Assembly: GCF_000092405.1 (NCBI RefSeq) | Contig: NC_014220.1 | Location: 868,001-932,000, forward strand | Source: Syntrophothermus lipocalidus DSM 12680 | Lineage (GTDB): Bacteria; Bacillota; Syntrophomonadia; Syntrophomonadales; Syntrophothermaceae | Length of the DNA: 64,000 bases | Reading direction: 5' to 3' | Shown here: positions 9,969 to 57,336 of the stretch, one piece after another | Position numbering within the stretch: position 1 is the stretch's first letter | How the letters are laid out: the number at the start of each line of letters is the position of its first letter | Program-made: the position numbers and the translations under genes | The notes under the pieces: generated by a model | What the model saw: the letters and a program-made list of their open reading frames with translations, nothing else | Database searches by the model: none | What the model was told of the DNA's origin: nothing

Positions 9969-10400
9969 ATGTCGGACATGGTAAAAGCCTTTTACCGCGA
10001 TATTCTGTTACAGGTGTTATCGATTGAATCGAGAAAAAGGCAGGTCTCGGAGCGCCTGTTGCTGACCAAGTCTGATAGGTTACGGCTCAGGATCATCAGG
10101 GAATTCCTCAGCTTGGACCTGGACAAACACACTTTGCTCCAGCAGGCGGCTGTAGTCGGATTTCGAAATCAGGCGTTCGATATATTGGATCATTTGCGCA
10201 AGCTCTACGGGGTAGAGGAGTACGACTTGTTGCCTGACCGCATACGAGAAGAAATACGACATACGGAAAGGCTTCTTTTGCCGATCGTGAATGAGATAAA
10301 ATATCCTAAAAGTAGTAGTTTTTTTGAACGCCGTCTCATCCAAGAGGTGAACAAGTACGTTACTTTGCAGGCCAGGGAATACGTCAAGGTTAGACTTTAA
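9969..10400 (+). CDS. Hypothetical protein, helical, 143 residues
   Basis: Not recognised. The product is rich in charged and leucine residues and looks almost wholly alpha-helical (RIIREFLSLDLDKHTLL, REEIRHTERLLLPIVNEIK), with no signal peptide, membrane segment or cysteine motif. Start ATG 9969 follows GGGAGGAG at 9955-9962. It lies 14 bases before the CoA-disulfide reductase gene, so the two are probably co-transcribed; a role linked to that enzyme is only a guess. The 256 bases before it hold the rqcH promoter and no clear forward promoter. Confidence 0.75.
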   Translation: MSDMVKAFYRDILLQVLSIESRKRQVSERLLLTKSDRLRLRIIREFLSLDLDKHTLLQQAAVVGFRNQAFDILDHLRKLYGVEEYDLLPDRIREEIRHTERLLLPIVNEIKYPKSSSFFERRLIQEVNKYVTLQAREYVKVRL

Positions 10401-10414
10401 AGGAGGGGAAAGAA

Positions 10415-12094
10415 ATGAGTAAGAAAGTGGTTATTGTGGGCGGGGTTGCCGGAGGAGCCAGTGCGGCTGCGCGCCTGAGAAGGCTCGATGAAGAGGCCCA
10501 CATCGTGATGTTTGAGCGAGGCGAGTACATCTCTTATGCTAACTGCGGCCTGCCCTACTATGTAGGCGGTGTCATACGGGACAGGAAAAAGCTCTTGGTA
10601 CAAACCCCCGAAGCGATGCGCCGGAGGTTCAACATCGATGTGCGCACTTTGAGTGAAGTCGTGCGCATATTGCCTGGGGAGAAAGAGGTGGAGGTCAAAA
10701 ACCTGGCCACTGGAGAGGCGTACAGGGAGAGCTATGATTACCTTGTTCTATCCCCCGGAGCCAGTCCGGTAGTTCCGGATATACCGGGGGCCAACCTGGA
10801 GAATGTCTTTACCATCCGTAACGTGCCGGACAGTGATGCTATTAAGGCCCACATCGAGACTCGAAAGCCTTCAACGGCGGTTGTTGTCGGTGGTGGTTTC
10901 ATTGGCTTGGAAATGGCAGAGGTCTTAATGGCCTGTGGTACCAAAGTAACGTTGGTGGAAGCCGATACTCAGGTAATGCGGGCTCTAGATCCTGAAATGG
11001 CGGCGATAGTCCATTGCTATTTACGTGACAACGGGGTAGACTTGCGCCTCGGCGACAAGTTAGTGTCTATAAAAGGTTCTTCTGGAGTGGAAGAGGTAGA
11101 GCTTGCCAGCGGAAAGACCTTGCCAGCAGAACTTGTCATTTTGGGGATAGGGGTTCGGCCTGAGGTCTGGCTGGCAAAGGAAGCGGGGCTAGAAATCGGC
11201 CCTACTGGCGGTATCCTAGTAGACGAGTACCTGCGTACCTCGGATCCTTTTATTTACGCGATAGGAGATGCGATTCAGGTCAAGGATTACGTTACTGGTC
11301 AAGATGTCCTGATTCCTCTCGCCGGACCTGCCAACAGACAAGGGAGGCTGGTTGCTGACACCATAGCCGGGCAGCCCACGCCATATAAAGGTAGCCAGGG
11401 AACTGCTATCGTAAAAATAATGGACATGGTAGTGGCGGTGACCGGGAGCAACGAGAAAACCCTGAACCGATTGGGACGTGAACACCTGGCCTGTCATACT
11501 CATCCCGCTCCCCACGCCACTTATTACCCGGGCGGGACCCCGATGGCCATGAAACTTATATTCTCACCGGGTGACGGGAAGGTGCTGGGAGCGCAGATCG
11601 TGGGCTATGAAGGGGTTGATAAACGTATCGATGTCCTGGCAACTGCGATAAGAGCAGGAATGACGGTTTTCGACCTGCAGGATTTGCAGTTGGCGTATGC
11701 TCCCCCATTTTCTTCCGCTAAGGATCCGGTGAATATGATCGGGTACGTTGCTGGTAATATGGTACAGGGTAATGTAGAGATAGCTCACTGGCATGAAGTT
11801 GACAAAAGACTGGCCCAGGGGGCGCTGCTTTTGGATGTTCGAACCAAGAGGGAAGTAGAAGACGGGGCAGTGCCAGGGGCCCTTAACATCCCCGTTGACA
11901 ACCTGCGCGAAAGGCTCAGTGAATTACCAAAAGACAAAGAGATTTTGGTTTATTGCCAAGTTGGCTTGAGGAGCTATATCGCTTATCGCATTTTGCGACA
12001 ACATGGATTCACAGCTAAAAGCATCAGCGGGGGCTACCGCACATACCATATGGTCGGCAAGGACAAGGCCTGCTTCGAGAGTGGTAACGCGTAG
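10415..12094 (+). CDS. CoA-disulfide reductase with C-terminal rhodanese domain
   Basis: FAD-dependent disulfide reductase of the CoADR/NADH oxidase/polysulfide reductase group fused to a rhodanese domain. 559 residues. FAD-binding GGVAGGASAAARLRRL at the N-terminus. The single active-site Cys of the family is in SYANCGLPYYVGG. Second nucleotide-binding block VVVGGGFIGLEMAEVL; FAD block YAIGDAI. The rhodanese part starts near residue 465 and has its active Cys in VYCQVGLRS. Such fusions reduce CoA disulfide, CoA persulfide or polysulfide; the substrate here is not decided by sequence. AGGAGGGG precedes ATG 10415. Confidence 0.92.
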   Translation: MSKKVVIVGGVAGGASAAARLRRLDEEAHIVMFERGEYISYANCGLPYYVGGVIRDRKKLLVQTPEAMRRRFNIDVRTLSEVVRILPGEKEVEVKNLATGEAYRESYDYLVLSPGASPVVPDIPGANLENVFTIRNVPDSDAIKAHIETRKPSTAVVVGGGFIGLEMAEVLMACGTKVTLVEADTQVMRALDPEMAAIVHCYLRDNGVDLRLGDKLVSIKGSSGVEEVELASGKTLPAELVILGIGVRPEVWLAKEAGLEIGPTGGILVDEYLRTSDPFIYAIGDAIQVKDYVTGQDVLIPLAGPANRQGRLVADTIAGQPTPYKGSQGTAIVKIMDMVVAVTGSNEKTLNRLGREHLACHTHPAPHATYYPGGTPMAMKLIFSPGDGKVLGAQIVGYEGVDKRIDVLATAIRAGMTVFDLQDLQLAYAPPFSSAKDPVNMIGYVAGNMVQGNVEIAHWHEVDKRLAQGALLLDVRTKREVEDGAVPGALNIPVDNLRERLSELPKDKEILVYCQVGLRSYIAYRILRQHGFTAKSISGGYRTYHMVGKDKACFESGNA

Positions 12095-44490: not shown

Positions 44491-44552
44491 TATGGACTTT
44501 GAAAAACTGTTAAAATAATAATCAAGGCCGGGAATGGTTGGAGGGATTCCAG

Positions 44553-46646
44553 GTGAGGGTAAAGGATGTCATGACTACAGATCTGGTGGTAATACGGCCT
44601 GAACAGACTATCCGGGAAGTGGCAGGGGTATTATCGGAACCGAGCATCGACAGCCTGCCGGTAGTAGACGAGGCAGGAAGGTTGTTAGGGCTTGTCAGCA
44701 AGAGCGATGTTTTGAAAGCTTTTACGAAGAGCCTAGACCCGAATACTCCTGTTAGCGAAATCATGACGGGGAATGAGGTTAAAGTAGCGCACCCCGAAGA
44801 TGCAGTTGAAGAAGATTCGGCAGAAATCAGTTGTCTGCCTGTAGTGTATAAAGAAAAGCTGGTAGGTGTTTGTACCCGGTCGAATCTGACCAGAGCTGTG
44901 ATCGAAAAGTTGCAGCATGTTCGGGACGAGCTGTTCACGATTATAAACTCTATCCACAACCCGATAGTCTCGATAGACAATCGGGGAGCGGTTAGGGTCA
45001 TAAACCGGTCTGCAGAAAAGTTGTTGGGCAAGGGGTCAGATAGGGTCATAGGGAAGAATGTCAGGGCTGTTTTCTTTACTACCAAGTTATTAGAGACCCT
45101 TAAGACTGGCAAAACCGAGACTTCTCAAAAGATAAAACTGAACGACAAGTATTTTATTTCCAATCGCACCCCAATAGTCAGAGACGGAAAGATCGTGGGC
45201 GCGGTCGCGATTATGCAAGACATTACCGAGTTGGAGGAAGTGTCGAGAGAGCTGCGCAATGTAAAAGAACTGAATTCGGAACTAGATGCGATAATCCAGT
45301 CTTCATTTGACGGGTTATTTGTTACTGACAGCGAAGGCCGAGTGGTTCGGGTGAACCGGGCATACGAACGCATAACCGGTTTGAACGAGAAGGACTTGTT
45401 AGGCAAGACCATGGAGGATATGATAGAAGAAGGCATGTTTTCTAATTCTGCATCCTTGTTGGTTCTTGAGAAAAAAGAACCGGTGACTATCATCCAGGAA
45501 AACCGGAATGGTAAAGTAACGCTGGTAACCGGTAACCCTGTGTTTGACGACAGCGGAGAGATTTTTCGGGTGGTAACCAATGTAAGGGATATAACTGAGC
45601 TCAACCCATTGAAACAGGAACTGGAACAGGCCCGCGGTTTGACCAGGCATTACGAGCATCAACTGCAGCAGTTGCGTATAGTGTATTCTGGCGGAAAGCT
45701 CGTTGTTAACTCGGATAAAATGCGGGCTCTTGTAGATTTGGTCATGCGTTTGGCCCAGGTTGATTCCACCATATTGATTCAAGGGGAATCCGGAGTCGGA
45801 AAAGAGCTGATAGCCGAGACTATCCATAACAACAGCCCGCGTAAAGACGGGCCGTTCATTAAGGTTAACTGCGGCGCCATTCCCGAAAATCTTCTGGAGT
45901 CAGAGCTTTTTGGTTATGAGGATGGCGCGTTTACCGGAGCACGCAAGGAAGGGAAAATAGGCCTGTTTGAACTGGCAGCCGGGGGTACCCTATTCCTAGA
46001 TGAGATCAGCGAATTGCCGCTGAATCTTCAAGTCAAGCTGTTGCGAACAATTCAGGAAAAAGAGGTCACTCGAGTGGGCGGGGCGCACCCTATCAAGGTG
46101 GATATACGAATTATTGCCGGTAGCAACCGGGACTTGGCTGCCATGGTCAAGGCGAAAAAATTCAGAGAGGACCTGTATTACCGCCTCAATGTGGTGCCGG
46201 TTTACGTTCCGCCTCTGAGGGAGAGAAAAGAGGAGATACCGGCTTTAGTGGCTCACTTTTTAAATAGGTTTAACGAGCAGTATAATTTGAACAAGAACGT
46301 AGCACCGGCAGTGGTAGACGTGTTCATGGGCTACGATTGGCCTGGGAATGTCAGAGAATTGGAGAATCTGATTGAGAGATTAGTAGTAATAACCCCCGGA
46401 GACGTGATTACGACGGATGAATTGCCTCCCTATTTACTCAGTAAGCCTTCCGACATCAGCGTGCGGGTATCGGTTGCAGATGTTGTACCTCTCAAGCATG
46501 CGATCGAGAGTGTGGAGAGACAGATACTAGAGAAAGCCTTTTCCAGGTTTAAAAGCACCCGCCGGGTAGCGAAGGAACTGGGAGTCAATCAATCCACCGT
46601 GGTTCGAAAAGCAGCCAAGTATAATATAGCTATTTTGGACAGGTGA
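44553..46646 (+). CDS. Sigma-54-dependent activator: CBS pair, two PAS, AAA+, TyrR/Fis-type HTH (copy 1)
   Basis: Enhancer-binding protein for sigma-54 RNA polymerase, about 697 residues. A CBS pair (about 1-120) may sense an adenine nucleotide or CoA-like ligand. Two PAS domains follow (about 125-230 and 245-350). AAA+ domain: Walker A GESGVGKE near 411, GAFTGA near 458 (contacts sigma-54), Walker B GGTLFLDE. C-terminal HTH, TRRVAKELGVNQSTVVRKAAKY. GTG 44553 is set by GGAGGG upstream. No receiver domain, so the signal is likely a ligand. The first site of the palindrome array overlaps its stop codon. Closely related to the copy at 53201. Confidence 0.95.
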   Translation: MRVKDVMTTDLVVIRPEQTIREVAGVLSEPSIDSLPVVDEAGRLLGLVSKSDVLKAFTKSLDPNTPVSEIMTGNEVKVAHPEDAVEEDSAEISCLPVVYKEKLVGVCTRSNLTRAVIEKLQHVRDELFTIINSIHNPIVSIDNRGAVRVINRSAEKLLGKGSDRVIGKNVRAVFFTTKLLETLKTGKTETSQKIKLNDKYFISNRTPIVRDGKIVGAVAIMQDITELEEVSRELRNVKELNSELDAIIQSSFDGLFVTDSEGRVVRVNRAYERITGLNEKDLLGKTMEDMIEEGMFSNSASLLVLEKKEPVTIIQENRNGKVTLVTGNPVFDDSGEIFRVVTNVRDITELNPLKQELEQARGLTRHYEHQLQQLRIVYSGGKLVVNSDKMRALVDLVMRLAQVDSTILIQGESGVGKELIAETIHNNSPRKDGPFIKVNCGAIPENLLESELFGYEDGAFTGARKEGKIGLFELAAGGTLFLDEISELPLNLQVKLLRTIQEKEVTRVGGAHPIKVDIRIIAGSNRDLAAMVKAKKFREDLYYRLNVVPVYVPPLRERKEEIPALVAHFLNRFNEQYNLNKNVAPAVVDVFMGYDWPGNVRELENLIERLVVITPGDVITTDELPPYLLSKPSDISVRVSVADVVPLKHAIESVERQILEKAFSRFKSTRRVAKELGVNQSTVVRKAAKYNIAILDR

Positions 46647-46759
46647 TGCTACGGCGCATCGAACGATGCAAATGAGCATCATTCGATGCCTGCCATTGCC
46701 CCGTCTTTTTGAATAATCCGTCTAAGCTAGTATCCTGCCTACTGATGCGTTTCTGCATC
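46645..46759 (+). promoter_or_regulatory. Palindrome array 1 (GATGC-N6-GCATC), likely activator sites
   Basis: Three perfect GATGC-N6-GCATC sites at 46645-46660, 46665-46680 and 46744-46759. The first two are separated by four bases, so centres are 20 bases apart, and a half site follows at 46685-46689. They lie 123-222 bases before the -24/-12 promoter at 46882. An 8-base inverted repeat, ATGCATTC (46820-46827) with GAATGCAT (46843-46850), lies between. Confidence 0.75.
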
Positions 46760-46881
46760 GAATTTCCGCTTACATGCACTGCATTTTTATTTTGTCAAAA
46801 TTTTTGTCAAGTCTTCTTAATGCATTCTGTTAAAGAAGCTTGGAATGCATATTTATACATAGACTGCAAAAAGGACCATGG

Positions 46882-46897
46882 AGGCATAAGTTTTGCA
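46882..46897 (+). promoter_or_regulatory. Sigma-54 (-24/-12) promoter of the thiolase unit
   Basis: AGGCATAAGTTTTGCA: GG at 46883-46884 and GC at 46895-46896 are ten bases apart, as required, with TTGC at the -12 element. Less perfect than the other two promoters in this region. The start should be near 46908, about 880 bases before the thiolase gene. Confidence 0.65.
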
Positions 46898-46922
46898 AAT
46901 TATACAGAGGCGGAGGTTGATG

Positions 46923-46960
46923 GCCTTCGAAGCCCCTGGGGGCCCAAGGCTTGTTTTTAC
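46923..46960 (+). terminator. Terminator-like hairpin just after the sigma-54 start
   Basis: GCCTT (46923-46927) pairs with AAGGC (46946-46950) with an inner GCCC/GGGC stem, followed by TTGTTTTTA. It would end a transcript of about 50 nt unless read through. Confidence 0.6.
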
Positions 46961-47785
46961 GAGGGCCGGGGCAAATATGGGATGGGGAGGTGAGCTAAGG
47001 CTTAGAATTCCGGATTGACGGGGATCAGTCAGGGGGATTCAGGGGGATGTTAGCAATTAGAGGGACAAGACTAATATAATAATGATCATTTGTAACGTAT
47101 AAATGTCGTGGTTTGCGTAAGGCTTAGTTGTAATGATTTTATGATGGCGGGGGATAGGGTCAAGTACAGTACGGTTAAGAGAAGAAAGGAAAAGAGACAA
47201 TTATAACTAGGAATATAGGGAGATCAAGAAAAGGCATAGATGACGTGCCTTGTGGAGACGACGGGCCTTACAAGCTTCGTAATCAACGGGAGTCGGAACT
47301 ACCTCCGAGGGCGGCAACGGAGGCCCGGCCTATGTGTAAGTGAAGGATTCAAAGCGTTGAATCCAGGTTCATGGTGGTTAGAGGGACGGGGTGAAGGAAG
47401 TGGGTCTATGGTCGTCGGTAGTACGGGTTTTGTGCGGAAAGCAGGGAGGAGTACGGCGCAGGCGACATCTACGTAACTACTTTCACCTTCTTGCATTACC
47501 AACAGACCATAGAGATGCTGGGGGATGTTGTCTTTATTATCACAGATGAATAAAGAGATAAAGTGATGAGAATGGAGGAGTTTTGGGCTGTGGCTCGTAG
47601 TGGCTGGGTTGGGAGGGTGTGTAGGACGGGATAACGTATATTTAAAGGTGAACAAGACATAACAAGCAAACATCTGCACATAATGTCTGGGGGGAGGGAT
47701 CGGAAACCTGCCCGGGGGAGTTAGGTGGTTTAGAAGAAGACATCAAGTTCAGTTTTTTTAAGTTATCTTTTGAGGAGGTAAGAGG
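46961..47785 (+). other. Long leader before thiolase, no convincing gene
   Basis: About 825 bases, GA-rich on the plus strand, with no ORF that has both a ribosome binding site and protein-like composition. Structure candidates: CGGGCCT (47262-47268) with AGGCCCG (47321-47327), enclosing TCGGA/TCCGA (47293-47297 with 47304-47308); GGATTCAA (47345-47352) with TTGAATCC (47357-47364) around AGCG; and CAACA/TGTTG near 47501-47530 followed by TCTTTATT. This may be a structured leader RNA or an independent non-coding RNA. The thiolase ribosome binding site GAGGAGG ends it. Confidence 0.5.
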
Positions 47786-48970
47786 ATGAGCAGAGAGGTC
47801 GTTTTGGTAGGGGCATGTCGCACTCCGATAGGGACTTTTGGAGGGACTCTTAAGGACATGACGGCGGTACAGTTGGGTACAATCGTCATGAAGGAAGCAT
47901 TGAAGAGAGCCGGGATCTCAGGGGACCAGGTAGATGAGGTAATATTCGGATGTGTGTTGCAGGCAGGACAGGGACAGAACGTTGCCCGCCAGTGTGCTAT
48001 TCATGCGGGGATACCGGAAACGGTCACGTCGTTCACCATTAACAAGGTATGCGGTTCTGGTCTAAGAGCAGTCAGCCTTGCGGCGCAGATCATCAAAGCA
48101 GGGGACGCTGACATTGTATTGGCTGGCGGCACCGAGAGCATGACCAACGCTCCTTATCTGGTTCCTAAAGCCCGTTACGGATATCGCATGGGCGACGGCA
48201 AGCTGGTGGACGAGATGGTGTTCGGCGGGTTGACCGACATCTTCAACGGGTATCACATGGGGATTACCGCGGAGAATGTAAACGAAATGTATGGGATAAC
48301 CAGGGAGGAACAGGACGAATTTGGATTAAGGAGCCAGGAGAGGGCTTTCGCAGCTATAGAATCTGGCAGATTTAAGGACGAGATCGTGCCGGTAGTCATC
48401 AAGACCAAGAAGGGCGAGGTAGTTTTCGATACAGATGAACATCCCCGCCGTACTACGATGGAGGCCTTGGCCAAGCTAAAACCGGCGTTTAAGAAAGACG
48501 GCAGTGTAACTGCAGGTAACGCTTCGGGGATAAACGACGGGGCAGCGGCGGTAGTAGTCATGTCGAAAGAAAAGGCGGACGAACTGGGAATCAAGCCGAT
48601 GGCCAGAGTAGTAAGCTATGCCTCGGGCGGGGTGGATCCCAAGATTATGGGTGTAGGACCTGTACCTGCTACTAAGAAAGCATTAGCCAAAGCCGGATTA
48701 ACCTTAGACGATATAGATCTGATTGAAGCCAACGAAGCATTTGCTGCCCAATCCATAGCGGTGGCACGCGATATGGGCTGGGACAAGATGATGGACAAGG
48801 TTAACGTAAACGGAGGGGCAATAGCCCTGGGTCATCCGATCGGAGCTTCTGGTTGTCGTATACTCGTAACTCTGCTCTATGAAATGCAAAAGAGGAACGC
48901 GAAGCGGGGACTGGCAACCTTGTGTATCGGTGGTGGACAAGGGACCACGCTTATTGTCGAGAGTTTATAG
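47786..48970 (+). CDS. Acetyl-CoA acetyltransferase (thiolase)
   Basis: Cleaves or forms acetoacetyl-CoA; in a fatty-acid oxidiser the last beta-oxidation step. 394 residues. Acyl-accepting Cys in [11 protein letters not shown], active His in [17 protein letters not shown], second Cys in [15 protein letters not shown] precedes ATG 47786. Followed 96 bases later by a large acyl-CoA dehydrogenase, probably in one transcript driven by the sigma-54 promoter at 46882. Confidence 0.95.
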
Positions 48971-49066
48971 TGGGTCAGTCCTGTACAGAGACTGGATGAC
49001 GGTCTGAAAGCCAATGATATTGGCGGGAAGACATAGTCAGACATAAATAGTAAGGAGGGAATTGTT

Positions 49067-50899
49067 GTGCCTCATAATAACTATTTGCTCCAGACGCGCG
49101 ATATTAAGTTTGTTATTAAAGAATGGCTGGAGACGGAAAGGCTGCTGTCCATGGATGCCTACAAAGACTACTACGGAGTTGACGATTTTGATTCTATCCT
49201 CGACGTCAACTACAAGGTCTGCCGCGATGTAATGTGCCCGGCCAACAAGGACGCAGATGAGATTGGAATGAAGTTTGTCGGCGGCAACGAGCAGGCGGTT
49301 GTGAGTCCAGAGTCCTTCAAGAAAGTCTATAATACGGTGATGGAAGCCGGGTTGGGCCCACAGTTTGGAGACCGTTCCGCGGAAGGGCGCATGCCGCTCA
49401 GCTGGTACGCCCCCATCCTGGAGATGCAGACGGCTGCGTCGCCGGCTATCGTCATGTTTTGGTGCCTGACCCAAGGGGCGACCACCATTATTCAATATAA
49501 CTGTTCAGAGTTTCTGAAGAACCTTTTCCTGCCTAAAATGTATACGGGCGAATGGGCTGGAACCATGTGTCTGACCGAGCCCCAGGCTGGTTCTGACCTG
49601 AACGCGGTTGCTACCCGCGCATTCCCTACGGACAAGAAAGGGATCTACAAGATTAAGGGACAGAAGTGCTTCATTACTTCGGGGGACCACGATCTGAGCA
49701 AGAATATAATTCACATGGTTTTGGCTAAGACCCCGGATGCTCTGCCTGGCACCGCCGGTATTTCGTTGTTTATTGTTCCTAAGTTCTGGGTAGATGAGAA
49801 CGGGAACGTGGGGGGCTGGAACGACGTAACCACCGTCGGCATCGAGCACAAGATGGGGCTCCATGGATCCTCTACCTGTACCCTGGCGTTTGGCGAGAAC
49901 GATAACTGCTACGGCTATCTAGTAGGCGAGGAGCCGGTAGGAGGGCGCGGCAAAGGCCTGTCCTACATGTTCCAGATGATGAACGAAGAGCGCCTGAACA
50001 CCGGGTTGTTCGCTCTTGGAACCATCACATCGGCATACTATGCAGCTCTAGACTACACCAAAATTCGCGTGCAGAGCCCGTCCTTCAAAAACCCGAAAGG
50101 GCCGGCTGTACGTATAATCGAGCACGAGGACGTCAGGCGCATGCTCATGTATCAGAAGTCCTGTATGGAAGCGATTAGAGCTCTCATCTACTCGACCTAT
50201 TTCCATGTCGACCTGATTCACGATTCCCCTGACCCAGCAGAGCGGGAGTGGGCTGACGACGTCTTCATGATTCAGAACCCGCTGTGCAAAGCATACTCCT
50301 CCGATATGGCTTGGTTATTGACTGCGGAAGCTATCCAGTGTCACGGCGGTTACGGCTATATGGAAGAGTACGCTCCGGCTTCACTGGCACGTGACTGCAA
50401 GATCTACGCTATATGGGAAGGAACTAACTTCATCCAGGCCAATGACCTTACCGGCCGCAAGTTCTCCATGAAGAAGGGAGAACCGTTTAGGAAGTGGGTC
50501 GACGCTATTGGTGAATTCATAGCCCAGAAGAAGACGCCGGAGTTTGCTAACGAATTCGCGATGATGGAAGAGGCGTTTGCCACCTACAAACAAATCTTAG
50601 CGACTAACGAGTCCTGGAAAGCTACCCGTCCCGAACTAACACCGTTATTCGCAACTCGCATACTGCACGCGACTGCCATGGTTAAGTGCGGCCAGCTTCT
50701 GCTCGACCAGGGTTTGTTAGCAGCCAAGAAACTGGCTGAACTAGGCGAAGACCATTACGATGCCAATTTCTACAAGGGCAAGATCGCAAGCGCCAAGTTC
50801 TATGTTATGAACGTTGTACCTAACGTGTTTGGTATCGACAAGGCCATGAAGGCAGCGGACACCAGCGCTATCGATCTGCCAGAAGAGGCATATATGTAA
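49067..50899 (+). CDS. Acyl-CoA dehydrogenase, large type (610 residues)
   Basis: FAD acyl-CoA dehydrogenase with a C-terminal extension, the type of about 600 residues found in several beta-oxidisers. An N-terminal segment precedes the catalytic core; CLTEPQAGSDLNAV is the FAD/substrate block, GYGYMEEYAPASLARDCKIYAIWEGTNFIQ the end of the core, split here as GYGYMEEYA and DCKIYAIWEGTN; about 140 further residues follow. Codon use looks somewhat more GC-rich than neighbours. GTG start after AAGGAGGG. The substrate chain length cannot be read. Confidence 0.93.
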   Translation: MPHNNYLLQTRDIKFVIKEWLETERLLSMDAYKDYYGVDDFDSILDVNYKVCRDVMCPANKDADEIGMKFVGGNEQAVVSPESFKKVYNTVMEAGLGPQFGDRSAEGRMPLSWYAPILEMQTAASPAIVMFWCLTQGATTIIQYNCSEFLKNLFLPKMYTGEWAGTMCLTEPQAGSDLNAVATRAFPTDKKGIYKIKGQKCFITSGDHDLSKNIIHMVLAKTPDALPGTAGISLFIVPKFWVDENGNVGGWNDVTTVGIEHKMGLHGSSTCTLAFGENDNCYGYLVGEEPVGGRGKGLSYMFQMMNEERLNTGLFALGTITSAYYAALDYTKIRVQSPSFKNPKGPAVRIIEHEDVRRMLMYQKSCMEAIRALIYSTYFHVDLIHDSPDPAEREWADDVFMIQNPLCKAYSSDMAWLLTAEAIQCHGGYGYMEEYAPASLARDCKIYAIWEGTNFIQANDLTGRKFSMKKGEPFRKWVDAIGEFIAQKKTPEFANEFAMMEEAFATYKQILATNESWKATRPELTPLFATRILHATAMVKCGQLLLDQGLLAAKKLAELGEDHYDANFYKGKIASAKFYVMNVVPNVFGIDKAMKAADTSAIDLPEEAYM

Positions 50900-50978
50900 A
50901 CGTGATAGCCAGGGGGTCGAAGCAAGCTCGTGTTTTAAGGTACGATTAGACCAGGGAAAATATAACTACTGAAACGTC

Positions 50979-51007
50979 GGCGGGGTCTATAGACCTCGCC
51001 TTCTTTT
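50979..51007 (+). terminator. Intrinsic terminator after the large acyl-CoA dehydrogenase
   Basis: GGCGGGGTC (50979-50987) pairs with GACCTCGCC (50992-51000) with one G-U, followed by TTCTTTTG. Confidence 0.85.
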
Positions 51008-51017
51008 GTGTAGAGCA

Positions 51018-51215
51018 GTTGCAACAGCGCATCATAAGATGCAGAGCGACATCTACCGATTTACTTTGTCGGTGGCAGCAAGATACTGAAGAGCGACATA
51101 AATAGGCGTCAATCGCCCCGCGGCGCGGAATATATTGTTTTGACGGTGAGAGCGCAGGTCTGCGAGATGCGCGATGGCATCAGACGTGGGGGATGACATG
51201 ATGATAAAGTGCATC
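51018..51215 (+). promoter_or_regulatory. Palindrome array 2 (GATGY-N6-RCATC), likely activator sites
   Basis: Exact sites at 51038-51053 (GATGC/ACATC) and 51166-51181 (GATGC/GCATC); one-mismatch sites at 51018-51033 (GTTGC/GCATC) and 51200-51215 (GATGA/GCATC). The distal pair has the same four-base gap as array 1. Distances from site end to the TGG of the promoter are 283, 155 and 121 bases. Confidence 0.75.
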
Positions 51216-51335
51216 ACAAACAAGCTGTTAAGTGTTTTCTATGACTTAAAGAGATACGATTTGCGGTGAATTGAAGCTAGAAAGGTCCGGGTAAACCGCG
51301 GTGTGGCGGGCGTTTATCATTAAGGAGGGGTCACA

Positions 51336-51351
51336 TGGCACGGTAGTTGCT
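51336..51351 (+). promoter_or_regulatory. Sigma-54 (-24/-12) promoter of the CoA-transferase gene
   Basis: TGGCACGGTAGTTGCT, a full consensus match; GG and GC are ten bases apart. The start should be near 51362. Confidence 0.9.
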
Positions 51352-51407
51352 TATATGTAGTCATTGGGATACGAGTATAACAGCGCATCGACCTAGAGAA
51401 AGAGATC

Positions 51408-51554
51408 GACTCCCTCGCCATGCTGCTCTATGGTGCAGGGGTGTAAGGGGCAATAGGATTCTCTAGTAGAGGTAAGAGTAGCAGGTGTCATAGGAAGAAT
51501 GATAACCAAGTACCCGTACAAGTTGCCTGTATCATAGAGCGGCGGCCTTTTTTT
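51408..51554 (+). ncRNA. Conserved leader RNA, copy A (upstream of CoA-transferase)
   Basis: The 5' block at 51408-51436 (from GACTCCCTCGCC to CTATGGTGC) matches 55810-55838 at 27 of 29 bases. The 3' block at 51525-51547 matches 55923-55944. The two blocks pair: 51422-51439 (from GCTGCTCTATG) with 51526-51543 (to CATAGAGCGGC), about 18 pairs with a few G-U, enclosing about 86 variable bases, then seven T. It begins about 46 bases after the expected sigma-54 start. It can act as a terminator or a sensory leader; I do not recognise it. Confidence 0.75.
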
Positions 51555-51603
51555 ATTAGGCACCAAAATAAAAAGATAAATGAGAGAAGGAGGGTGTTTT
51601 GTA

Positions 51604-52962
51604 GTGGGGTTGATGGATGAGTACAGAAGCAAGCTAGTCACAGCAGAGCAGGCAGTCAAGGTTGTAAAATCGGGGGACTGGGTTGATTACGGCTGGTGCG
51701 TCGGACATGCATATGAACTGGACAAAGCCCTAGCCGCCCGGGCCGAGGAGCTTACCGACGTAAAAGTCAGAGGCGGAGTAACCCTGTGGATGCCAGAAAT
51801 ATTCAAGATTGAAAACCCGGGAGACCATTTCACGTGGATGAGCTGGCATTTTATGGGAGTTGATCGCAAAATCTACGAGATGGGTTGTGGATATTACGGC
51901 CCCATCAAGTACAATGAACTACCCCGGTACTATCGTAACCACGTTAAAGATGTAGATGTGGCGATGTTCCAAGTAGCCCCTATGGACAGGCACGGTTACT
52001 TCAATTTTGGACCGCAAACATCGCACATGATGGCAGTCTGCGAGCGAGCCAAGATCATCATCGTTGAAGTCAACGAAAACATGCCGAGGTGTTTGGGGGG
52101 GTACGAGAGCGAGATTCACATATCTAAGGTAGACTACATTGTAGAAGGACCCAATCCTCCTCTGGCTCAGCTTCCGTCGGCTCCACCTACGGAAGTGGAC
52201 AAAAGAGTAGCAGAATTAATAGTGAGCCAGATTGGCGACGGAGCTTGTCTGCAGCTGGGGACAGGCTGGATGCCAAATGCGGTCGGGACGATGATAGCCG
52301 AGTCCGACTTGAAGGATCTCGGGGTACACACCGAGATGTACGTCGACGCGTTCGTTGATATTTACAATGCTGGGAAAATAACGGGAGCCAGAAAATCCAT
52401 TGATCGCTTCCGGCAGGCTTTTGCTTTTGGAGCAGGTACGAATAAACTGTACGAGTTCGTGAACGATAATCCCGGAGTAGCCAGCTATCCCGTAGATTAT
52501 ACCAATCATCCCTCTCAGGTAGCCAAGCTGGACAACTTTATTTCCATAAACAACGCGATTGAGATAGACTTATTCGGGCAGGTTTGTTCGGAGTCTTCAG
52601 GTATTCGACACATAAGCGGCACCGGGGGACAGCTTGATTTCGTGCAGGGGGCGTATGATTCCCGAGGAGGGAAGAGTTTCATCTGTTTATCCTCAACCTA
52701 TGGTAAGAAAGGAGAACTTAAATCCAGAATAGTTCCTACTTTGACTCCGGGAAGCATTGTTACCGACCCTCGTACGGCGACGCACATAATTGTTACCGAA
52801 TATGGAATGGCTAACCTAAAGGGATTGAGTACCTGGGAAAGAGCTGAAGCTATAATCAACATCGCTCATCCTGACTTCCGGGACCAGCTGATTGCCGAAG
52901 CTGAAAAAATGAAGATCTGGAGGAGAAGCAACAAGCGGGGTTCGCAAACGGTTGTGGCTTAG
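51604..52962 (+). CDS. CoA-transferase, acetyl-CoA hydrolase/4-hydroxybutyrate CoA-transferase family
   Basis: Moves CoA between an acyl-CoA and a free acid, probably butyryl-CoA and acetate in this setting. About 452 residues. [18 protein letters not shown] in the middle, the C-terminal signature [20 protein letters not shown], and a conserved Glu in CSESSGIRH likely to be the catalytic one. GTG 51604 lies nine bases after AGGAGGG; ATG 51580 lies before that site. Only gene of its unit, read from the sigma-54 promoter at 51336 through the leader RNA. Confidence 0.9.
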
Positions 52963-53057
52963 AATTCGAAGGTCTGGACAGGCTGGAGAAAGTTTTGTGG
53001 TTTTACAGGTTCCGGTTGCATTTTAGAGAAGGTGCTGATATTTGAGGAATCTCCGTA

Positions 53058-53090
53058 ACAGCGGGGTTGGAGAAACCCCGCTGTAAGTTT
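53058..53090 (+). terminator. Probable terminator after the CoA-transferase
   Basis: ACAGCGGGGTT (53058-53068) and AACCCCGCTGT (53074-53084) form an 11-bp stem; the T-run is weak (AAGTTTAT). The rest of the 238-base gap shows no strong promoter; TCGAAT-N17-TAGAAT near 53130-53158 is a weak candidate for the next gene. Confidence 0.7.
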
Positions 53091-53200
53091 ATGATTCGTG
53101 AACTGATAGGGGCGATGTTGCTATCGAATTAGAGCTGCTTGTGTTATAGAATAAGTTAATGGGGAAAACAAGATGAAACTGGATGGGGTGAGGGAGAGCT

Positions 53201-55393
53201 ATGAAGTTTAAAGAAGTTATGACCCCTAATCCGCTGACTTTGAGCCCTGACCAGACGGTTAGAGAGGTCGCCTCGATTTTCTTAGGAAGACGTATCGACG
53301 GTGCTCCAGTAGTAAACGAGTGGGGTGAGCTCATCGGGCTTTTTACCAAAAGCCATATAATGCGGGTAGTGGCCGAAGGAAGGGATCTCGATACACCGGT
53401 AAGAGACTTGATGACTAAGGACAACATAATAACCGCAGGGCCAGAGGACGACATCGACGATTTCTATCAAGGACCGGAAGAGATATCGGGGACCAAGGTC
53501 ATCGACCCCTTACACGGGTTTATGGGGGGCGAGGTTGCCATCCAAAAAGCCCAGTTCGGAAGGCTGCCTATTGTCGAAGGTAAGAAAGTCGTAGGTATGT
53601 TTACCCGGACTGATACCACCAAGGTGTTCCTGGAGCAGTTGCAAAAGGTAGGCAGCGAGTTGGTGACCATACTCGATTCGGTTCACAACGGGATACTGTC
53701 TGTGGATCGCCGTGGGGACATCAGGGTATTCAACCGGGCTGCCGAAAGGCTCTTGGGGAAATCGGCAGAGGCGGTTCTGGGCAAAAACGCCAAAGCCTGT
53801 TTTCCCACCACCAAGATACTGGAAACCCTGAAAACCGGTGAAGCCAGGTACGCGGTGAGGGTGAACATCAACAACAAGACCTTGATTTCGAACCACGCAC
53901 CGATTATCAAAGACGGGGAAATCATAGGGGCGGTTGCGGTTTTTCAGGATATCACGGAACTGGAAGAGATATCACGAGAATTGGAGTACACCAAAGAGTT
54001 AAACGCGGAACTAGACGCCATCTTCGAGTCTTCCTATGACGGGCTTTTCGTTACCGACGGGAACGGGGTTGTGGTTAGGTTAAACAAGGCTTTGGAAAGG
54101 ACTACTGGCCTCAAAGGGGAAGAAATGCTGGGCAAAAACATGAGGGAACTGGTGGACACGGGTTACTTTTCCGATTCAGTCACTTTGCTGGCTATTGAGA
54201 AACGGGAACCCGTTACCTTGCTGGAGAAAACCGGTGCTGGGAAAATAATCTTGGTTACAGGTAACCCAATATTCAACCAAAAGGGAGAAGTTGTACGGGT
54301 TTTGACCAACTGCCGGGATATCACTGAGCTTACGGAACTGCGGGATAAGCTGGAGCGGATGCAGGGGTTGTCGAAACACTATGCTACCCAATTACAGCAA
54401 CTGCGTATGAAATATGCGGAGTGGCAGCACATGGTTATCAGTTCTGCGAAGATGGAGAACCTCATGGAGTTGGTGGTACGGCTGGCTCAAGTAGATTCCA
54501 CGATACTGATACAAGGGGAATCCGGGGTCGGCAAAGAGTTAATCGCGGAGACTATTCACGCCAACAGCCCCCGGCGCAAGGGGCCTTTCATCAAGGTTAA
54601 CTGCGGTGCGATTCCCGAGAACCTTTTGGAGTCGGAGCTCTTCGGTTATGAGGAAGGGGCTTTTACCGGGGCCAGAAAAGAGGGTAAAGCCGGGACCTTT
54701 GAACTGGCCGGCGGGGGCATCCTGTTCTTAGACGAAATAGGCGAATTGCCCCTGAACCTGCAGGTGAAACTGCTAAGGGTGCTGCAGGATCGGGAAATCA
54801 CCCGGGTAGGCGGAACCAAGTCTATCCCCATAGATGTCCGTATAATCGCAGGTACTAACCGAGACCTGGCTAAAATGGTGGAAGAGAAACTGTTCCGTGA
54901 AGACCTCTTTTACCGTTTAAACGTGGTACCTCTGGTAGTTCCTCCTCTGCGCGAGCGTTTGGAGGAGATTCCCGCTTTTGTGAGCCATTTTCTTAACAAG
55001 TATAACCAGAGGTACAGTTTGCACAAGCGAGTGGCACCAGAGGTGATCGACGCTTTCATGCAGTATAACTGGCCCGGTAACGTACGTGAATTAGAAAACT
55101 TGATTGAACGATTGGTTGTTACTACTGCGCACGATACCATAACCTGCGAAGACTTGCCGCCCTATTTGGGAGGAAGCAGGGCTAATCAGGTCACTTCTGA
55201 GATAGCAGTCTCGGAAGTAATTCCGTTGAGGTATGCCATTGAAGCCTTGGAAAAGCAATTGCTGGAGAAGGCTTTTGCCAAGTACAAAACAACCCGTAAA
55301 ATAGCCAAAGAGTTAGGCGTAAACCAGTCAACCGTGGTCAGGAAAGCGGCAAAGTACGGGTTAGGTACCCACCGAACCGCTGTGAATACCTAA
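53201..55393 (+). CDS. Sigma-54-dependent activator: CBS pair, two PAS, AAA+, TyrR/Fis-type HTH (copy 2)
   Basis: Paralogue of the activator at 44553, 730 residues. Extra residues sit in the second CBS unit (around DDFYQGPEEISGTKVIDPLHG), making the CBS region about 160 long. PAS domains near 155-260 and 275-380, Walker A GESGVGKE near 439, GAFTGA near 486, GGGILFLDEI, and HTH TTRKIAKELGVNQSTVVRKAA. The HTH is nearly the same as in copy 1, so both may bind the same palindrome, while the CBS and PAS parts differ more and may respond to different signals. ATG 53201 after GGGAGAG. Followed by palindrome array 3. Confidence 0.95.
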   Translation: MKFKEVMTPNPLTLSPDQTVREVASIFLGRRIDGAPVVNEWGELIGLFTKSHIMRVVAEGRDLDTPVRDLMTKDNIITAGPEDDIDDFYQGPEEISGTKVIDPLHGFMGGEVAIQKAQFGRLPIVEGKKVVGMFTRTDTTKVFLEQLQKVGSELVTILDSVHNGILSVDRRGDIRVFNRAAERLLGKSAEAVLGKNAKACFPTTKILETLKTGEARYAVRVNINNKTLISNHAPIIKDGEIIGAVAVFQDITELEEISRELEYTKELNAELDAIFESSYDGLFVTDGNGVVVRLNKALERTTGLKGEEMLGKNMRELVDTGYFSDSVTLLAIEKREPVTLLEKTGAGKIILVTGNPIFNQKGEVVRVLTNCRDITELTELRDKLERMQGLSKHYATQLQQLRMKYAEWQHMVISSAKMENLMELVVRLAQVDSTILIQGESGVGKELIAETIHANSPRRKGPFIKVNCGAIPENLLESELFGYEEGAFTGARKEGKAGTFELAGGGILFLDEIGELPLNLQVKLLRVLQDREITRVGGTKSIPIDVRIIAGTNRDLAKMVEEKLFREDLFYRLNVVPLVVPPLRERLEEIPAFVSHFLNKYNQRYSLHKRVAPEVIDAFMQYNWPGNVRELENLIERLVVTTAHDTITCEDLPPYLGGSRANQVTSEIAVSEVIPLRYAIEALEKQLLEKAFAKYKTTRKIAKELGVNQSTVVRKAAKYGLGTHRTAVNT

Positions 55394-55445
55394 CGATATT
55401 GATGCAATAGGGCAATAATCGATGCACTAGTGCGCAGTAGTGTGC

Positions 55446-55616
55446 GATGTCGTAGGGCATCGTTAGCGACTAAATGCTATCCTGGTTAGGGCTTGTAAAG
55501 GCGAAAACCGCTGTGAAATATATAACAATTGAGCAAGAAGGGTGTCGGTCTTGCAGGGTGGGCGTCCGGGGATGCAGCTAAGCATCGAAAATCAAGATGT
55601 GATGTCGAATGACATC
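55446..55616 (+). promoter_or_regulatory. Palindrome array 3 (GATGY-N6-RCATC), likely activator sites
   Basis: Three exact sites: 55446-55461 (GATGT/GCATC), 55571-55586 (GATGC/GCATC) and 55601-55616 (GATGT/ACATC). Distances from site end to the promoter TGG are 284, 159 and 129 bases, close to those in array 2. Both half-site variants (GC and GT ends) occur as matched pairs here. Confidence 0.75.
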
Positions 55617-55744
55617 AACCTGTTCGCCCGCCGCGAGTTTCTTCAAGCCCAAGCTCAAAGTTGTCTTCTGAGAAGTTCAGGCTGGACGGGCATTCCTGGG
55701 ACCGGCGTATAAGCGAGAAAAAAGCTTAGGAGACGGACAAAACT

Positions 55745-55760
55745 TGGCACATTAATTGCA
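55745..55760 (+). promoter_or_regulatory. Sigma-54 (-24/-12) promoter of the third acyl-CoA dehydrogenase unit
   Basis: TGGCACATTAATTGCA, a full consensus match with the required spacing. The start should be near 55771, about 420 bases before the gene. Confidence 0.9.
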
Positions 55761-55809
55761 TCTTCTATAGGGTGTGGGTATAATAACTAATGGTTAACGG
55801 TTTAGTTTT

Positions 55810-55952
55810 GACTCCCTCGCCATGCTGCTCTACGGTACGGAACTTGAATAGAAGGTTTTGCCTTAGTGGCTGGAAACCTTGTTGATACAGTGACGTGTCT
55901 AGTGGTCTGCCCACAGATAGATGCCTGTATCGTAGAGCGGCGGCTTTTTTTT
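55810..55952 (+). ncRNA. Conserved leader RNA, copy B (upstream of acyl-CoA dehydrogenase 3)
   Basis: Second copy of the RNA at 51408. The stem pairs 55824-55840 with 55925-55940 and is followed by eight T. Compared with copy A, CTCTATGG became CTCTACGG while the opposite strand ATCATAGAG became ATCGTAGAG: a U-A pair replaced by C-G. Two other changes keep pairing through G-U. The enclosed 82-84 bases differ strongly from copy A. It begins about 39 bases after the expected start. Confidence 0.75.
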
Positions 55953-56073
55953 ATGTGGTAGTAGTGGATGGTAGTGCATGGAAAAGTATACAGGGAATTT
56001 ATGGGCTCGGTTAAGCTATCCATAACCAGCCCTTTTACAAAATCATGGATACGAGCACACGGTTCCGACTAGA

Positions 56074-56106
56074 AACTGGGAAGTAGTTATTATCCCAGTT
56101 TTTTTT
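56074..56106 (+). terminator. Second terminator in the leader of acyl-CoA dehydrogenase 3
   Basis: AACTGGGA (56074-56081) pairs with TCCCAGTT (56093-56100), followed by six more T. It lies between leader RNA copy B and the gene, so transcripts would have to pass two terminators. A TATAAT at 56112-56117 just after it has no good -35 box. Confidence 0.85.
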
Positions 56107-56193
56107 ATGTTTATAATGGATGTTAGTGGAGTATATTGCCCTTGCTTGCAAAAACCAAAGGGATTGGCGTACACTGGTGAGGGAGGGGGAACC

Positions 56194-57336
56194 GTGCATT
56201 TCCGACTGAGCGAAGATCAGCAGATGTTCAAGAAAATGGTGAGGGATTTCGCCGAGAATGAGATACTACCGACTGCTGCGGAAAGGGATCGGGAACAAAG
56301 GTTTGATCCCAGTATATGGCGCAAGATGGCAGAGCTGGACTTGTGTGGCATCCCGTTTGAGCAAGAGTACGGTGGAGCCGGACTTGGCTATCTCAGCTAC
56401 ATCATCGCGGTAGAAGAATTATCGCGCGTGTGTGCCGCTACCGGCATAACTCTTTCTTCCCATATTTCGCTTTGCTGCTGGCCTATTCATGAATACGCTC
56501 GACCAGAGCAAAAGGCGAAGTATCTAAGGATGCTGACGTCAGGCGAAAAGATGGGGGCGTTTGCTATGACGGAGCCTTGGGCGGGGAGTGATGCCAGCAG
56601 CATACGAACCCGTTGTCGGCTAGAGGGAGATGAGTGGGTCTTGGACGGCACCAAGTTATTTACCACTAATGCTCCCTACGCGGACATCTACATTGTGATG
56701 GCGCGGACAGGCAGCGCCGATGACAGGCACCGTAATACATGCGCCCTGGTGGTTGAAAAGGGTTCCCCGGGGTTTACTTTTGGTAGGCAGGATGACAAGA
56801 TGGGTATTCGTGGTTCAGCTACGTGCCAACTGGTGTTCGATAACTGCCGCATACCGAGGGAGAACCTGTTGGGACAGGTAGGAGAAGGCTTTGCCATAGC
56901 TATGAGGACTTTGGACGGGGGTCGAATCGGAGTGGCAGCTCAGGCTGTGGGTATTGCCCAAGCGGCTTACGAATACGCTCTCAGGTACGCGAAGGAGAGG
57001 ATTCAGTTCGAGAAGCCAATAGCTACTTTTCAAGCTATACAGTTTAAGCTGGCTGATATGGCGACGAGGATTGAAGCAGCTCGTCTTTTGACCTATCAAG
57101 CGGCCTGGCTCCAAGAAAACGGTTTTCCTTACTCCAAAGAAAGCGCCTTCGCGAAGGTGTTCGCTGGCGACGTGGCTATGTGGGTTACTACAGAGGCGGT
57201 ACAGGTGCTGGGAGGGCATGGCTATATAAAAGACCACCCGGTGGAGCGCTATATGAGGGATGCTAAGATAACTCAGATCTATGAAGGAACGGCTGAGGTC
57301 CAAAAGATGGTTATAGCGAATCACATCCTCAAGTGA
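56194..57336 (+). CDS. Acyl-CoA dehydrogenase (380 residues)
   Basis: FAD acyl-CoA dehydrogenase, probably short-chain. HFRLSEDQQMFKKMVRDF at the start, AMTEPWAGSDASS (Trp in place of the usual Gly), KLFTTNAPYADIYIV, and LGGHGYIKDHPVERYMRDA with IYEGTAE at the end. GTG 56194 follows GGGAGGGGG and starts at the family N-terminus; an upstream ATG at 56107 sits in the terminator tail and adds 29 unrelated residues. Similar overall to the gene at 39665. Lies convergent to the GGDEF gene. Confidence 0.93.
   Translation: MHFRLSEDQQMFKKMVRDFAENEILPTAAERDREQRFDPSIWRKMAELDLCGIPFEQEYGGAGLGYLSYIIAVEELSRVCAATGITLSSHISLCCWPIHEYARPEQKAKYLRMLTSGEKMGAFAMTEPWAGSDASSIRTRCRLEGDEWVLDGTKLFTTNAPYADIYIVMARTGSADDRHRNTCALVVEKGSPGFTFGRQDDKMGIRGSATCQLVFDNCRIPRENLLGQVGEGFAIAMRTLDGGRIGVAAQAVGIAQAAYEYALRYAKERIQFEKPIATFQAIQFKLADMATRIEAARLLTYQAAWLQENGFPYSKESAFAKVFAGDVAMWVTTEAVQVLGGHGYIKDHPVERYMRDAKITQIYEGTAEVQKMVIANHILK

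Follow-up and report, generated by a model that had tools for sequence, protein, structure and literature searches.

At the level of the promoter, the closest described systems are those of the PrdR/AtoC type, in which sigma-54 is combined with an AAA+ enhancer-binding protein. The thiolase locus of Syntrophothermus lipocalidus shares with them a -24/-12 promoter, palindromes upstream of this promoter and an adjacent regulator of CBS-PAS-AAA+-HTH architecture; it differs from them in the 878-nt length of the leader of the thiolase operon and in falling short of the NCBIfam equivalog cut-offs for PrdR and AtoC. At the level of RNA, the points of comparison are (i) intrinsic terminators and attenuators, (ii) RoxS and RsaE, which are C-rich trans-acting small RNAs of Firmicutes, and (iii) the leader families of Rfam 15, two of which are found in the 64-kb window (the whole stretch of DNA that was analysed), i.e. 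an FMN riboswitch (RF00050, 35292-35422, 104.7 bits) and a PyrR binding site (RF00515, 2183-2286, 57.1 bits). The thiolase leader and the sister elements described below have a cis-regulatory leader position in common with these two families and, unlike them, have no match at the gathering threshold.

Little is known about the ways in which obligate syntrophs, close to thermodynamic equilibrium, adjust their beta-oxidation genes. According to PMC3035303, S. lipocalidus TGB-C1 is able to degrade butyrate and isobutyrate in partnership with a methanogen. The genome is a single contig of 2,405,559 bases, and the stretch considered here sits inside a fatty-acid oxidation gene cluster at 44538-57336 of the window. 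We suggest, with a probability of roughly 0.6, that positions 46908-47785 form the untranslated 5' leader of the operon for thiolase and acyl-CoA dehydrogenase, and that this leader is transcribed by sigma-54 RNA polymerase under the control of an enhancer-binding protein and is without coding content or conserved structure that could be discerned.

Predicted sigma-54 promoters and regulators of the butyrate cluster

The cluster contains the following features, in the order of their positions in the window:

44538-46646, plus strand: sigma-54 enhancer-binding protein 1 with CBS, PAS, AAA+ sigma-54 activator and HTH_50 domains (open reading frame with listed TTG start, predicted; Pfam)
46645-46689, unstranded: operator-like array GATGC-N6-GCATC-N4-GATGC-N6-GCATC-N4-GATGC, candidate upstream activating sites (regular expression)
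46744-46759, unstranded: additional operator-like site GATGC-N6-GCATC (regular expression)
46882-46896, plus strand: sigma-54-type promoter AGGCATAAGTTTTGC (8/10 consensus positions; GG and GC kept at 10-nt spacing)
46908-47785, plus strand: predicted untranslated leader of the thiolase operon (start placed from promoter spacing; GC skew 0.40)
47786-48970, plus strand: thiolase, acetyl-CoA C-acyltransferase (Pfam, NCBIfam)
49067-50899, plus strand: acyl-CoA dehydrogenase-like protein, 610 aa (Pfam)
51029-51181, unstranded: two operator-like sites (51029 and 51166) upstream of the second sigma-54 promoter (regular expression)
51336-51350, plus strand: sigma-54 promoter TGGCACGGTAGTTGC (10/10 consensus)
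51580-52962, plus strand: butyryl-CoA:acetate CoA-transferase (TIGR03948 above cut-off; listed start, predicted)
53201-55393, plus strand: sigma-54 enhancer-binding protein 2, domain order as in protein 1 (Pfam)
55571-55586, unstranded: operator-like site upstream of the third sigma-54 promoter (regular expression)
55745-55759, plus strand: sigma-54 promoter TGGCACATTAATTGC (10/10 consensus)
56107-57336, plus strand: acyl-CoA dehydrogenase, 409 aa (Pfam, NCBIfam)

The promoter at 46882-46896 ends 12 nt before the predicted leader start at 46908 and is the weakest of the three in the cluster, its first T being replaced by A. Since eight further plus-strand sites in the window match the sigma-54 consensus equally well at 8/10 positions, this promoter taken alone would be weak evidence, and its position and company outweigh its score. 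In the 64 kb, GCATC-N4-GATGC or GATGC-N6-GCATC is matched eight times, each time upstream of one of the three sigma-54 promoters, a count that is to be read with the pattern having been derived from these very sites. Together, the palindromes and the three promoters support a single regulon and a transcription start near 46908, and the palindromes are likely binding sites of the enhancer-binding proteins. The two enhancer-binding proteins are paralogues and both carry the Sigma54_activat domain (Pfam). In both, a CBS domain precedes the PAS domains, which may hint at nucleotide sensing. A search of the genome contigs with the enhancer-binding protein found no relative.

Based on this arrangement, we suggest that sigma-54 RNA polymerase would transcribe the leader from 46882-46896 and that the activator, bound at the palindromes 120-240 bp upstream, would be the enhancer-binding protein encoded at 44538-46646 or its paralogue encoded at 53201-55393.

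Alternatively, transcription of the thiolase gene could start close to the gene, the gap then being mostly untranscribed spacer or decayed DNA. In line with this model are the imperfect promoter at 46882, the sites of equal quality elsewhere in the window and a comparison of the leader DNA with 150 other genomes, in which the only counterpart found was a 47-bp match, in a single genome, that covers the ribosome-binding site. The leader itself contains neither a sigma-70-like site on the plus strand nor a second sigma-54 site, and both the composition of the leader (see below) and the thiolase loci of relatives speak against such a start. In five relatives (Sw1, G009a, G050a, G021 and G039), a 79-81% identical thiolase is preceded by a sigma-54 promoter, at a distance of 280-593 nt, and its leader carries the conserved hairpin described below. 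In Syntrophomonas a sigma-54 promoter lies several hundred bases upstream of an approximately 80% identical thiolase, and this leader is conserved between two genomes (G005 and G009); in G050, G021 and G039, promoter, hairpin and thiolase follow one another as in Syntrophomonas. Among the best 80 of 542 thiolase loci, the highest identity is 83% and no congener of S. lipocalidus is present, although this list may omit the records nearest to S. lipocalidus. Taking these observations together, we consider a start near the gene unlikely and favor the model of a long leader.

Three sigma-70-like consensus sites are present in antisense orientation inside the leader (minus strand, 47227-47200, 47163-47136 and 47103-47076), and five sigma-70-like sites were found in the region where 1.8 were expected.

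Coding potential and composition of the leader

The gap between the stop codon of the regulator gene (46646) and the thiolase ATG (47786) comprises 1,139 bp and ranks third by length among 203 gaps longer than 50 bp in the window and a 400-kb sample, with genes delimited by a crude gene caller that may miss genes. The description of the stretch before the thiolase gene as unusually long in the initial annotation thus agrees with the ranking. That most of it would be transcribed as a long thiolase leader is suggested by the promoter at 46882-46896, the operator-like palindromes, the gene for the enhancer-binding protein and the five relatives.

The scored open reading frames of the gap do not resemble genes, as had been proposed. 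Five of them have codon scores of -7.5 to -25.6 bits compared to +108 for the thiolase gene, the score of 47057-47200 is also negative and that of the 41-aa frame at 46893-47018 is close to zero (+0.005 per codon compared to a median of 0.19 for long open reading frames), i.e. six of the seven scored frames are negative and one is near zero. The frames 47240-47473 on the plus strand and 47299-47676 on the minus strand gave zero matches in NCBIfam. On the basis of the codon scores and NCBIfam, a coding or decayed gene in the leader was rejected.

The GA-rich strand bias noted in the initial annotation proved to be extreme. The leader has a GC skew of 0.40 and a purine content of 62%, and an absolute skew of at least 0.40 is found in only three of 8,923 windows of 878 nt, all of which overlap the thiolase leader, making it the most G-skewed stretch of its length in the 464 kb of S. 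lipocalidus surveyed (the 64-kb window and 20 sampled 20-kb stretches); the next most skewed stretch reaches 0.354. Seven runs of at least five G residues are present compared to 0.875 per kb on the plus strand of the genome sample. One strict G-quadruplex pattern is located approximately 55 nt below the predicted start, with a background, over the window and sample, of 0.018 per kb and strand:

46963-46987, plus strand: strict G-quadruplex pattern of four G3+ runs (pattern search)

The excess of G over C continues from the predicted start into the thiolase gene, which fits a single transcribed unit and argues against a start near the gene. Rho prefers C-rich, G-poor RNA. We suggest that the extreme excess of G over C would be a trait of a long, transcribed and untranslated RNA, for instance by the avoidance of Rho loading sites, and this is the reason for the skew that we prefer. 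Alternatively, a mutational strand bias could have generated a C-poor leader; against this alternative, the leader is not only depleted in C but also enriched in G.

Folding of the leader

The following inverted repeats were analysed in the leader:

46922-46958, plus strand: weak terminator-like hairpin with TTGTTTTT (one found compared to 1.3 expected; not above chance)
47262-47327, plus strand: stems of 7 bp and 5 bp from the initial annotation (present; stability not above shuffles)
47345-47364, plus strand: perfect 8-bp hairpin with AGCG loop (equal length in 2% of 200 shuffled leaders)
47405-47513, plus strand: 9-bp stem with arms 47405-47413/47505-47513 (reached by 17% of shuffles)

The initial annotation had proposed local RNA structure in this stretch and, by extension, a structured leader or a separate non-coding RNA. 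The perfect stems that it listed are present exactly where it placed them, i.e. 47262-47268/47321-47327 (CGGGCCT/AGGCCCG), 47293-47297/47304-47308 and 47345-47352/47357-47364 (loop AGCG). Folding of 47255-47370, which contains these stems (z-score -0.27), and of 47395-47545 (z-score -0.84) is at the level of shuffled sequences; the exceptions are the 8-bp hairpin and the fold of the entire leader (z -1.65), as stable as which none of 20 shuffles was. A U-rich tail had been reported near 47537; the longest T run there is at most three and the z-score of 47485-47545 is +0.09. Across the gap, 34 windows of 120 nt covering 46648-47757 have a mean z-score of -0.39 compared to +0.06 (standard deviation 0.98, 3.3% below -2) for 60 random control windows. 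The lowest value in the gap (-3.4) belongs to the stretch with the operator palindromes, before the leader starts, and the lowest value inside the leader (-2.68 at 47398-47517) coincides with the 9-bp stem that 17% of the shuffles also give. The weak hairpin at 46922-46958 is at the same distance from the promoter as the conserved hairpin in relatives; the region around it (46908-46965) has a z-score of +0.57. In Rfam 15, the leader has no match at the gathering threshold and none that is credible at E-values up to 10.

A structured cis-regulatory RNA or a separate non-coding RNA at approximately 47200-47540 would draw on the 8-bp hairpin, the minimum at 47398-47517 and the stability of the leader as a whole; the near-zero z-scores of its individual regions, the ease with which shuffles produce the 9-bp stem, and the lack of an Rfam family and of a T-run make it improbable. 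Of the two parts of the original proposal, we therefore retain the long leader, which is suggested by the promoter context, and find no support for the structured element at 47200-47540. The hairpins of the leader look like chance, being about what is expected for 878 nt of such composition.

A conserved hairpin element at the two sister promoters

Downstream of the second and third sigma-54 promoters of the cluster, two copies of a sequence element are found that we refer to as the sister element:

51404-51556, plus strand: conserved sigma-54 leader hairpin element, copy C, with T7 at its end (E 6.6e-13, copy included in the model; fold z -2.71)
55805-55954, plus strand: conserved sigma-54 leader hairpin element, copy E, with T8 ending at 55952 (E 2e-13, copy included in the model; fold z -4.26)

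Both copies are long hairpins with near-identical arms followed by a T-run, and they start 68 nt (copy C) and 60 nt (copy E) from the first base of their promoters. They align with the thiolase leaders of Syntrophomonas over a C-rich stretch, arms of the GCTGCTC type and a C/U tail. Two covariance models were built, R1 from seven seeds and R2 from 23 rows, and the promoter lies outside both models. In the alignment of the seven seeds (A3), changes on both sides of a pair are found in 5 of 17 pairs, a count reached by 4 of 500 shuffles. In the alignment of 23 rows (A5), they are found in 9 of 17 pairs and none of 500 shuffles is as high, while structures slid along the alignment score far lower; the rows of A5 were found with R1 and are in this sense selected by its structure, whereas those of A3 are not, although the stems had played a part when copies C and E were first recognised. 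The number of further pair types is not unusual in A3 or A5 (reached by 52 and 105 of 500 shuffles, respectively), and one A5 pair is unpaired in 13 of the 23 rows.

This raises the question of whether a copy of the element, decayed or strongly diverged, is present in the thiolase leader of S. lipocalidus, with the arms TCTATGGTC/GACCATAGA at 47405/47505. The letters of these arms and the length of the loop are similar to those of copies C and E. With filters off and E-values up to 10 allowed, neither R1 nor R2 matched the sense strand of the leader, and local alignment scores as good as those to copies C and E were reached by 47% and 18% of shuffled leaders, respectively. Moreover, the lower stem, the C-tract and the T-run are missing, and the arms lie approximately 520 nt from the first base of the promoter compared to 33-102 nt in accepted copies. 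A diverged copy is thus largely refuted and in our opinion very improbable. R2 has one minus-strand match in the leader, at 47190-47231 (10.2 bits, E 0.038), which is without the arms. Pairing of the sister RNAs with the leader was rejected, as in four duplex tests 11.5-76.5% of shuffles were as good.

Distribution of the element and coupling to sigma-54 promoters

Using the covariance models, 27 copies were accepted in 22 of 63 genomes of the order Syntrophomonadales, distributed over three of four genomes of the family of S. lipocalidus, none of five of a second family and 19 of 54 of a third. In addition to the seeds, R1 contributed 16 accepted copies and R2 four more within the order. Every accepted copy is preceded on the same strand by a sigma-54 site matching at least 9 of 10 consensus positions, the first base of which lies 33-102 nt before the element; as the promoter was used for acceptance, this 27/27 is a description of the accepted copies. 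Since acceptance excluded matches without a promoter, the coupling is more fairly expressed by all 26 non-seed sense matches, 20 of which have a sigma-54 promoter, the six promoterless ones being the three weakest sense matches of R1 and three matches outside the order. In the S. lipocalidus sample, to which this estimate is confined, sigma-54 sites of at least 9/10 have a density of 0.029 per kb and strand.

In the R1 search of the genomes, 32 rows were obtained, of which 26 are in sense (7 seeds, 16 accepted and 3 dropped) and 6 are antisense, reflecting the palindromic stem. The three dropped sense matches (G021:C68, G030:C77 and G056:C170; E 0.016-0.088) and the three dropped R2 matches outside the order (G215, G092 and G121) have no sigma-54 site. 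Another list of 42 matches consists of 22 accepted copies, 14 antisense matches over copies and six weak matches (E 0.088-0.44) outside the accepted set, and a third match in the genome of S. lipocalidus (E 5.8) was dropped. The two large genome searches were run with strict prefilters, so that copies may be missed, and the model searches covered sequences other than the best 80 of the 542 thiolase loci. A search with a degenerate pattern gave seven matches: one is the known copy in G021, and six, which are without an upstream sigma-54 site or R2 match and by eye resemble coding sequence, were rejected.

Each of the 27 accepted copies is closely followed, in the same orientation, by a beta-oxidation gene, i.e. 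enoyl-CoA hydratase (13), thiolase (6), CoA-transferase (5), 3-hydroxyacyl-CoA dehydrogenase (2) and acyl-CoA dehydrogenase (1), as read from the sequence and, for one hydratase and one hydroxyacyl-CoA dehydrogenase, confirmed by Pfam. One of the six downstream thiolases is only 47% identical to that of S. lipocalidus. In G061 the copy is a bare hairpin with a small loop, and the loop thus seems dispensable.

Two of the dropped matches (G021:C68 and G030:C77, loci L074 and L075) contain the unpaired 5' stretch of the element, a C-run followed by TATATNATT, without the hairpin or a sigma-54 site. This may reflect chance or a separate motif.

Possible functions of the element

The placement of a terminator-like hairpin after an activator-dependent promoter and ahead of the gene suggests attenuation. 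The sister hairpin and its U-run, situated near the start site, most probably act as a terminator or attenuator or form the body of a short sigma-54-dependent RNA, and we infer that the element is a previously undescribed sigma-54-coupled attenuator or small RNA. Copies C and E resemble intrinsic terminators and attenuators in that long hairpins followed by T7-T8 are placed between promoter and gene. They differ from them in (i) the conserved sequence of the arms, (ii) a C-rich stretch that precedes the hairpin in 20 of 27 copies, (iii) C residues that separate stem and T-run in many copies, (iv) the coupling to sigma-54 and (v) having no antiterminator that was identified.

As the main alternative, the element could be the 3' part of a trans-acting small RNA of approximately 130-200 nt, the C-rich tracts of which would act on G-rich ribosome-binding sites in the manner of RoxS/RsaE. 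Like these RNAs, the element has short C-rich tracts beside a terminator hairpin (in 20 of 27 copies the first 41 nt contain CCCTC or a run of at least four C residues), the tails of 25 of 27 copies contain T5 or longer, and the C residues between stem and T-run in many Syntrophomonadaceae copies are unusual for a plain terminator. In contrast to RoxS/RsaE, the element is embedded in the leaders of beta-oxidation operons and has a sigma-54 promoter, and its role as a small RNA is putative. Moreover, the beta-oxidation gene that closely follows every accepted copy in the same orientation makes action in cis the simpler explanation, and in the S. lipocalidus copies the C-tract has shrunk to CTCCCTC. 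We give a trans-acting RNA less than even odds.

Returning to action in cis, we tentatively propose, as a model with rather less than even odds, that a family of sigma-54-coupled leader RNAs constitutes a second, RNA-level switch on the thiolase, crotonase, hydroxybutyryl-CoA dehydrogenase, CoA-transferase and acyl-CoA dehydrogenase operons of the syntrophic fatty-acid oxidisers of Syntrophomonadales, and that the thiolase operon of S. lipocalidus has lost the hairpin, its 878-nt, extremely G-skewed leader doing an equal job in another way. A shared sigma-54 regulon together with a conserved hairpin below its promoters provides a compact and testable regulatory hypothesis for one bacterial order.

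The conserved sister hairpin seems not to have been described before: among the matches listed in searches of open-access PubMed Central (Syntrophomonas or syntrophic butyrate with sigma-54, ncRNA, riboswitch and sigma-54 attenuation) no description of the element was found, nor was one found in passages of PMC4324140. In Rfam 15, neither copies C and E nor the copies in loci L080, L083, L085 and L090 have a match at the gathering threshold. Locus L083 also contains a fluoride riboswitch (RF01734) at 10369-10448.
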